This document shows positions 21,751-32,099 of a DNA stretch of 35,726 bases, in pieces. The DNA is from Verrucomicrobiaceae bacterium. GTDB taxonomy: Bacteria; Verrucomicrobiota; Verrucomicrobiia; Verrucomicrobiales; Akkermansiaceae. A program made the position numbers and the translations under genes. The notes under the pieces are model-generated. The model saw only the letters and a program-made list of their open reading frames with translations. It made no database searches and was not told where the DNA came from. The DNA lies in the NCBI GenBank assembly GCA_029977225.1, contig JAPOLH010000009.1:1-35726 (forward strand). The letters run 5' to 3'. Numbering within the stretch: position 1 is the stretch's first letter; each line of letters starts with the position of its first letter.

Positions 21751-21825
21751 GGCGGAGTAGCCAAGTGGTAAGGCAATGGTTTGCAAAACCGTCATCCGTG
21801 GGTTCGATTCCCACCTCCGCCTCCA
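21751..21825 (+). tRNA. tRNA-Cys (anticodon GCA)
   Basis: The acceptor stem GGCGGAG/CTCCGCC (21751-21757 with 21815-21821), D-arm AGCCAAGTGGTAAGGC, anticodon loop TTGCAAA with GCA, and T-loop GGGTTCGATTCCC form a complete cloverleaf. The discriminator is T, as expected for Cys, and CCA is encoded (21823-21825). The last 19 bases are also the start of a downstream tandem repeat. Confidence 0.97.
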
Positions 21826-22016
21826 GTCGCGTTGCTCCTTGCATCTCCGGTGGCTGTGCCGGTTTCCGCTTCGCGGAGGTTTCTGATTTCCGGCAAGCCG
21901 AAAGCCGCATTCCCACCTCCGCCTCCAGTCGCGTTGCTCCTTGCATCTCCGGCGGCTATGCCAGTTTCCGCTTCGCGATGGCTCTTGATTTCCGCCAAGC
22001 CGAAAGCCGCATTCCC
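21807..22016 (+). repeat. 102-bp tandem repeat that begins inside tRNA-Cys
   Basis: Unit 1 is 21807-21908 and unit 2 is 21909-22010; they differ at about 9 of 102 positions. A third copy starts at 22011 but keeps only ATTCCCA before a terminator. Each unit opens with the 19 bases ATTCCCACCTCCGCCTCCA, which in unit 1 are the 3' end of the mature tRNA including CCA. Because 102 is a multiple of three, several frames stay open and the ORF track lists repeat-like peptides; I do not think these are proteins. Confidence 0.9.
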
Positions 22017-22044
22017 AGCTTCGTAGCTGAAGCTTTTTAATTTT
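22017..22044 (+). terminator. Intrinsic terminator closing the tRNA-repeat transcript
   Basis: The stem AGCTTC/GAAGCT (22017-22022 and 22029-22034) with a 6-base loop is followed by TTTTTAATTTT. It replaces the remainder of a third repeat unit. From here to 22167 there is an A/T-rich stretch with no gene. Confidence 0.7.
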
Positions 22045-31365: not shown

Positions 31366-31403
31366 TTGACATCATATTGACGCCTACATTACATTGACAT
31401 CAT
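31366..31403 (+). promoter_or_regulatory. Promoter and repeated operator-like sites of the toxin-antitoxin operon
   Basis: A perfect -35 box TTGACA (31366-31371) is followed by a 17-base spacer and a weak -10 (TTACAT 31389-31394, or TACATT one base later). The 10-mer TTGACATCAT occurs at 31366-31375 and again at 31394-31403 over the start codon, with a third TTGAC at 31377. RHH antitoxins typically bind short repeats over their own promoter, so autoregulation is likely. The projected start site is at the antitoxin ATG (31402), which suggests a leaderless mRNA. Confidence 0.6.
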
Positions 31404-31656
31404 GACCCGGACTCAAATCCAACTCCCCGAACCCCTTTTCCAACGTCTTCGCAGTATCGCCAAGGCGCGCGACTGGTCGGTGGCCGAGTTGATCCGCAGA
31501 GGCATGGAGTCCTATGTGCAGACCTGCCCGGAAACGACCCACGCCAAGACGGAGTGGTCCATGCCCGTTCTTCGCGGCAGCGGCGGTCATTTGATCGATC
31601 CTGCCAGCACGCGCGCGGAAGCCGACGCCATCGAGCACCGCTCCCACATCCGTTGA
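31402..31656 (+). CDS. Ribbon-helix-helix antitoxin (VapB-like)
   Basis: The 84-residue protein has an N-terminal RHH/CopG DNA-binding domain (TRTQIQLPEPLFQRLRSIAK, then WSVAELIRRGMESYV). The C-terminus (WSMPVLRGSGGHLIDPAST) would wrap the toxin. It precedes the PIN toxin by five bases, the standard antitoxin-first order. It probably represses its own promoter through the TTGACATCAT repeats. It belongs to a RHH-PIN type II system; finer family names would need a search. Confidence 0.87.
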   Translation: MTRTQIQLPEPLFQRLRSIAKARDWSVAELIRRGMESYVQTCPETTHAKTEWSMPVLRGSGGHLIDPASTRAEADAIEHRSHIR

Positions 31657-31661
31657 CCAAC

Positions 31662-32099
31662 ATGCTCACTGCCGACACCAACCTCTTCATCCATGCCGCG
31701 GATCCGGATTCGCCGCGGCACCGGGAGGCGTGCGGATTTTTTGCGCAGCTCGATACCTTTGACGACGAGTTCGTTCTCTGTGAACTCATCCTCATCGAGC
31801 TCTACATGCAGCTTCGCAATCCGGCAATCTTCCGCAAACCCTACAGCGCGAAGGAGTCCGCATCCTATTGCGATGCCCTCAAACAAAATCCGAATTGGCG
31901 CTGCGTCGATTATGATCCTCTGGTTTCACCAAAACTATGGAATTGGGCCGCCCATACCAAAGCGGGCTTTCGCCAGATGATCGACGCCCGCATCGCATTT
32001 ACCTTGCTACACCACGGGATCAACCGATTCGCCACCGCCAACATCAAGCACTTCAAGCCCTTCGGATTTTCCGAAGTCTGGAATCCACTGGAAGCGTGA
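31662..32099 (+). CDS. PIN-domain toxin (VapC-like ribonuclease)
   Basis: The 145-residue PIN-domain protein is a predicted Mg-dependent endoribonuclease toxin. The start at 31662 places the first acid in LTADTNLFIHA (D5), with further acids in CELILIELY (E41 or E46) and MIDARIAFTLL (D108). The last motif, FATANIKHFKPF, has Asn where many PIN proteins have Asp, a variation common among VapC-like toxins. The ORF track's longer 5' extension from 31554 overlaps the antitoxin gene out of frame. It ends 17 bases before gyrA, so read-through into gyrA is possible. Confidence 0.88.
   Translation: MLTADTNLFIHAADPDSPRHREACGFFAQLDTFDDEFVLCELILIELYMQLRNPAIFRKPYSAKESASYCDALKQNPNWRCVDYDPLVSPKLWNWAAHTKAGFRQMIDARIAFTLLHHGINRFATANIKHFKPFGFSEVWNPLEA

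Follow-up and report, generated by a model that had tools for sequence, protein, structure and literature searches.

For decades, since 1991, the tyrT operon of Escherichia coli has posed an isolated puzzle, rtT, which is, to our knowledge, the only named case of tRNA-tail repeats. The tyrV locus of E. coli K-12 carries 3.1 units of 178 bp, each of which opens with tRNA bases 58-76; its spacer contains, in this order, an inverted tRNA arm GGGGAAGGATGAGAA, AAGGTTCGA, palindromes and AATCC. In Salmonella Paratyphi A, rtT is a 175-bp VNTR (PMC2658671), and covariation and a tandem-GA motif have been published for RtT (PMC7657543, PMC8250186). GTAG-tagged REPs have been reported in Verrucomicrobia (PMC3733652), members of a BIME cluster resemble E. 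coli rtT (PMC2965389), and the crossover sites recognised for tRNA islands include the T loop and the T/acceptor junction (PMC4383910). In the open-access literature, we found no tRNA-tail repeat arrays beyond rtT.

Here, we describe an array of this kind behind a tRNA-Cys gene in a window from a Verrucomicrobiaceae bacterium, that is, the whole stretch of 35,726 nucleotides that was analyzed; this window and most of the relatives used for comparison are metagenome assemblies. The features of the locus are as follows.

21751..21825, + strand: tRNA-Cys(GCA) gene (ARAGORN; Rfam tRNA, 68.7 bits), with the CCA encoded at 21823-21825
21807..21825, + strand: 19-bp repeat copy 1, corresponding to tRNA bases 58-76 and lying inside the tRNA gene (sequence; boundary analysis)
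21826..21908, + strand: 83-bp spacer of the first unit, containing CCGCTTCGCGG and further short palindromes, with the 3' end GC/ATTCCC
21909..21927, + strand: 19-bp repeat copy 2, CCA included, equal to the tRNA end at 19/19 positions
21928..22010, + strand: spacer of the second unit, sharing 89 % identity with the first spacer
22011..22017, + strand: third 19-bp copy, a 7-bp stub, ATTCCCA
22017..22044, + strand: intrinsic-terminator-like hairpin with a T-rich tail (consensus match only)

The original prediction, a tRNA-Cys extended by a 102-bp tandem repeat that opens with the 19-base tRNA 3' end, was reproduced by ARAGORN, by TRF (2.1 copies, score 359, the sole tandem array reported in the window) and by alignment: the in-register 102-nt copies at 21807-21908 and 21909-22010 are 91 % identical, and the first 19 bases of each are ATTCCCACCTCCGCCTCCA, which are tRNA-Cys bases 58-76 with the CCA. 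The predicted truncated third unit in front of a terminator corresponds to the 7-bp stub and the hairpin that follows it; by consensus matching, three terminator-like sites occur in 601 bp versus 1.0 expected. Alternatively, the stub may be what remains of a full 19-bp copy after the loss of 12 bp between two CCA motifs, and ATTCCC stands at the same junction in a close relative, G030. As judged by eye, the flanking genes are bioA-like upstream and nrdR-like downstream. Elsewhere in the window, a gyrB-like and a gyrA-like gene enclose two small ORFs (31402-32099) that resemble, again by eye only, VapBC (an antitoxin and a PIN-domain toxin). A search of the window's own genome (a 1.75-Mb, 167-contig assembly) for the 102-bp unit found no copy elsewhere, so that the unit occupies a single site rather than being scattered, although distant relatives of its spacer are dispersed, as described below.

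The likeness to E. coli tyrT/rtT that was originally proposed holds in two respects: in both cases the units open with tRNA bases 58-76, and throughout the phylum the RtT model (RF00391) detects relatives behind genes for tRNA-Ser and tRNA-Pro. This model gave eight matches in 6 of 195 Verrucomicrobiota genomes (E <= 0.01, all below the gathering score), every one of them directly behind a tRNA-Ser or tRNA-Pro gene; three of these loci form tandem arrays (111, 127 and 184 bp) in which the unit begins at AATCC. The pattern GGATGAGAA-N{8,38}-GGTTYGA was found in 34 of the 195 genomes, with two control matches in all; among the loci read, those close to the 3' end of a tRNA belong to tRNA-Ser. 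In the window's own genome, the spacer behind tRNA-Ser(GGA) has the same order of parts as that of E. coli tyrV; the GATGAGAA helix arm is present behind tRNA-Ser(GGA) and tRNA-Pro(GGG), and behind tRNA-Thr(TGT) it appears as GGACGAGAA. Within the genus, an inverted arm of 16 bases is clearly significant only behind Ser(GGA) and Pro(GGG); elsewhere the arm is short. In a comparison of 14 rtT-like units, inverted arm and tail show covariation: six of nine arm pairs change on both sides, and the covariation score, computed on rows cut and placed by hand, is 0.193 compared with 0.080 for shuffled rows (0/500). On inspection, the window's Cys units contain no inverted tRNA arm with the GATGAGAA helix, and the RtT model has no match in the window region up to E = 5 and none at E <= 0.01 in the same genome. 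We therefore do not file the Cys unit under RF00391; the array is rtT-like in its tRNA boundary and its tandem form, and it stands outside that family. Of the Rfam identities considered for the window, only the tRNA match was credible.

The boundary at base 58 recurs at other tRNA genes. Of 22 loci (Cys, Ser, Pro, Thr, Arg, Met and E. coli tyrV/rtT), which were partly chosen by searches favouring this architecture, 18 have a repeat that begins at base 58; in two it begins at base 59, and in one each at bases 60 and 61. When the tRNA genes of three genomes (the window's own, G004 and G192) were scanned for tail copies with at least 15/19 identity within 300 bp downstream, 11 of 143 tRNAs had such a copy, as against two in the upstream control. 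Ten of these 11 copies lose identity immediately to the left of base 58, and the remaining one is a longer duplicate; because the scan is blind to copies that start well right of base 58, part of the sharpness on that side stems from its design. In the window's own genome, tail copies also follow tRNA-Ser(GGA), Ser(GCT), Thr(TGT) and Arg(TCT). One contig of this genome, C116 (L068), carries tRNA-Thr(TGT) and tRNA-Ser(GGA) with rtT-like units, an inverted arm and tail copies of 18-19/19, the Thr(TGT) case being a partial tandem of ~147 bp. The tRNA-Arg(TCT) gene and one tRNA-Met gene encode no CCA; their copies likewise have none and share the adjoining flank bases, which argues for copying of DNA and not of mature tRNA. 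On another contig, C95 (L090), a tRNA-Ser(GCT) gene without an encoded CCA is followed by a tail copy with CCA.

We compared the same locus among relatives using a covariance model of the Cys spacer (R1), run over 73 genomes of the genus, the window's own included, with rough E-values. The unit 1 spacer itself scores 107.5 bits with R1, which was partly built from this spacer. Matches at E <= 0.01 were obtained in 8 of the 73 genomes, seven of them strong. Strong matches lie behind tRNA-Cys in G000, G085, G030, G080, G094 and G082; the match in G020 is a contig-end fragment bearing the tRNA-Cys tail, that in G004 is weak and away from any tRNA, and the spacer of G005 is more distant and beyond the reach of R1. 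G000, G080 and G085 have two units each (the second being incomplete in the latter two), G030, G094 and G082 have one, and most congeners have no repeat at this tRNA-Cys; the copy-number comparison that was proposed with the original prediction thus returns two, one or no units, depending on the congener. In G080 (L143/L191), the second unit ends within the spacer and is followed by what appears by eye to be the C-terminal part of a restriction enzyme gene. In the contig collection, a tail-spacer-tail pattern matched 67 times: two matches overlap a tRNA-Cys gene, two more are the G005 and G020 loci, and those tied to a tRNA-Cys tail are from Verrucomicrobiota only; most of the 67 are chance matches with no tRNA there. 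The named records of these Cys loci are metagenome-assembled genomes labelled Verrucomicrobiaceae, Prosthecobacter debontii and Verrucomicrobia.

Units in the relatives are 93-104 bp long, with noncoding interiors of 74-99 bp whose sequence is related across several species. A 125-aa reading frame runs through the window array, but a coding repeat was rejected, as these unit lengths break the frame. Spacer identity is 84-100 % inside a clade, 62-77 % across clades and 52-62 % for G005. Spacer 1 is closer to the single unit of G030 (94 %) than to spacer 2 (89 %), and therefore the duplication of the unit is not recent. Moreover, the divergence of the spacer from G030 is about that of the neighbouring DNA (91-94 % identity), so that no special constraint is seen.

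An empty site was found in G075, in which the CCA of tRNA-Cys is directly joined to TTCTTCGCT and the upstream flank matches. In G094 and G005, the spacer and the 19-bp copy lie exactly between the CCA and TTCTTCGCT; in G005, an island additionally lies between the whole tRNA-Cys and the terminal 19-bp copy. Judged by eye, G094 and G005 have almost the same downstream flank, while their spacers are 62 % identical, so that the content of this slot was exchanged or inserted twice. The polarity may be either a gain in G094 and G005 or an exact loss in G075.

The genus also contains a dispersed palindromic repeat. A second model (R2), derived from seven palindromic copies that are either dispersed or Pro/Ser-linked, with no Cys members, and again giving rough E-values, finds 10 copies in G000, 12 in G085 and 13 in G030, which are close genomes, and one or none in five other congeners. 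Many of these copies are at non-tRNA sites, often flanked by ATT on both sides. R2 matches unit 2 of the window at 21921-22014 (E = 5e-4 per genome; 2.5e-5 in 83 kb), and over 20 tRNA-Cys loci (83 kb) it gives seven matches up to E = 1 (2.5e-5 to 0.93), all of them in Cys arrays. This indicates a weak but significant relationship between the Cys spacer and the dispersed repeat; relative to the tRNA, the Cys spacer is oriented opposite to the Ser/Pro copies of the dispersed family. In the window's own genome, three tRNA-Pro genes are clustered with palindromic elements (C2:1280-2020; L096), and the T-loop of tRNA-Pro(AGG) is interrupted by an R2 repeat, reading GGGATT, the element and then ATTCGAACCC on the reverse strand; this interrupted gene is probably a pseudogene. 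At several non-tRNA sites in G085 (L201, L206, L209), the dispersed repeat lies within a larger palindrome, GGACCTTTG...CAAAGGTCC. Y1_Tnp genes are present in all 10 congeners tested, both with and without the array.

Taken together, these results make it somewhat probable that a REP/BIME-like element was placed behind tRNA-Cys with a copy of bases 58-76 and was then amplified through the 19-bp repeats, as one member of a wider tRNA-tail class that includes rtT. This reading builds on direct observations: the fixed boundary, the exact filled/empty difference behind the CCA, the copy-number differences and the kinship of the spacer with a dispersed palindrome. The first three also support the recombination mechanism at tRNA 3' ends that was originally suggested. 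In such a scheme, a palindromic element with the copy of bases 58-76 on its 3' side would land, presumably by transposition, immediately after the CCA of tRNA-Cys; with the upstream copy in place, the tRNA would stay whole, and the insertion should therefore be harmless. The 19-bp direct repeats may then change the observed copy number by recombination or slippage. Because the array precedes the terminator-like hairpin, it is probably transcribed with the tRNA, and its RNA would be trimmed off the tRNA transcript as a by-product. For cutting or priming at base 58, the first candidate would be a single-strand transposase (Y1/RAYT) that acts on the hairpin of the T arm. Several points count against this element model: we saw no transposition event, the repeats have no specific transposase linked to them, array-free congeners carry Y1 genes as well, the match of the Cys spacer to the dispersed family is only weak, its orientation is opposite to that of the Ser/Pro copies, and the Cys unit has no rtT-like inverted tRNA arm. 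On a broader level, the chances seem about even that a widespread bacterial process duplicates bases 58-76 together with a palindromic insert at many tRNAs in distant phyla, the window being the tRNA-Cys case, with an insert akin to a dispersed repeat.

Alternatively, each unit may yield a structured RNA of the RtT class from the tRNA transcript, the arrays being kept under selection and the Cys array being a divergent form. The restriction of the verrucomicrobial RtT-model matches to tRNA-Ser and tRNA-Pro (8/8), the arm/tail covariation in the 14 rtT-like units and the published covariation and tandem-GA motif (PMC7657543, PMC8250186) argue for such an RNA. For the Cys array, we regard it as unlikely, since the window is unmatched by RtT, RNAalifold on the Cys spacers gave no net covariation support, the single-sequence fold of the Cys unit is weak (z = -1.7) and the spacer changes about as fast as the neighbouring DNA; moreover, cognate arms could also come from inverted copying of the tRNA.

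The att site that was initially put forward as an alternative is disfavoured in its usual form. In this genus, tRNA-Cys is a hot spot for islands, and the island duplications begin at about base 26-38, whereas the array begins at base 58. In G005 (L094), G011 (L095) and others, second tRNA-Cys fragments of ~40-50 bp that start near the anticodon lie ~5-66 kb away. The array repeat is not equal to the island core at tRNA-Cys, the element contains no integrase and its 83-bp interior is too small for a gene; an ordinary island remnant is therefore unlikely. An att of the T-loop type would be another reading: a tyrosine integrase crossing over in the T loop could have left bases 58-76 as direct repeats (attL/attR) around a mini-element or an interior since deleted, tandem units then being tandem insertions. 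The known crossover sites at the T loop and the T/acceptor junction (PMC4383910), the exact insertion behind the CCA with a 19-bp direct repeat and the extension of some tail copies into bases past the acceptor are consistent with this. Nonetheless, we consider it quite unlikely, given the anticodon-side duplications of the genus islands, the noncoding interior of 74-99 bp with related sequence in several species and the recurrence of RtT-model units in distant genera. Circles of 100 bp are, in addition, an unlikely substrate for recombination.

Reverse transcription of the tRNA 3' end, with the enzyme halting at base 58 and the copy then integrating, would account for the boundary, as base 58 is the m1A58 site in many tRNAs and retroviral enzymes stop at m1A58; the CCA in the copy behind the CCA-less tRNA-Ser(GCT) gene also fits. 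It is very improbable, however, because the copies of two CCA-less tRNAs are themselves CCA-less and share genomic flank, which disfavours mature tRNA as the template, and because we know of no m1A58 in E. coli, although the same boundary occurs there. Plain slippage on a chance 6-7 bp match such as ATTCCC, with nothing specific to tRNA, would suffice for the single unit of G030, which is closed by ATTCCC, but it is extremely improbable overall, as it leaves unexplained the common boundary at other tRNAs, the empty site with its exact insertion and the presence, in G094, G005 and G020, of terminal copies with all 19 bp.

Returning to the REP/BIME-like element and the wider tRNA-tail class, the recurrence of the base-58 break point behind many tRNA genes of the phylum and in rtT makes rtT look like one case of a widespread process. 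Since Verrucomicrobiota show such breaks behind tRNA genes for Cys, Ser, Pro, Thr, Arg and Met, rtT becomes a comparative problem, and the combination of an empty site, copy-number variants and differing inserts makes both the origin (transposition, integrase or RNA copying) and the function (structured by-product RNA or junk) directly testable.

Among known systems, E. coli rtT (rttR, RF00391) shares with the window array a tandem arrangement directly behind a tRNA, a start at bases 58-76 with the CCA, a GC-rich spacer bearing palindromes and a variable copy number. The window array differs in lying at tRNA-Cys and not tRNA-Tyr, in its unit of 102 rather than 178 bp, in a spacer that is unmatched by the RtT model and lacks the inverted tRNA arm GGATGAGAA...GGTTCGA, and in units that keep no reading frame across species (93-104 bp, not all multiples of 3). 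Islands integrated at tRNA genes resemble it in being inserted behind a tRNA whose 3' end is restored by a direct repeat; unlike them, the array carries neither integrase nor cargo, its interior is only 74-99 bp and it starts at base 58, not near the anticodon as the island duplications at this tRNA do. REP/BIME elements with RAYT (Y1) correspond to it in being short, palindromic and dispersed in close relatives (10-13 per genome), with the fixed end motif GC/ATTC and with Y1 transposases present, whereas the element in the window is tied to a copy of the tRNA tail.
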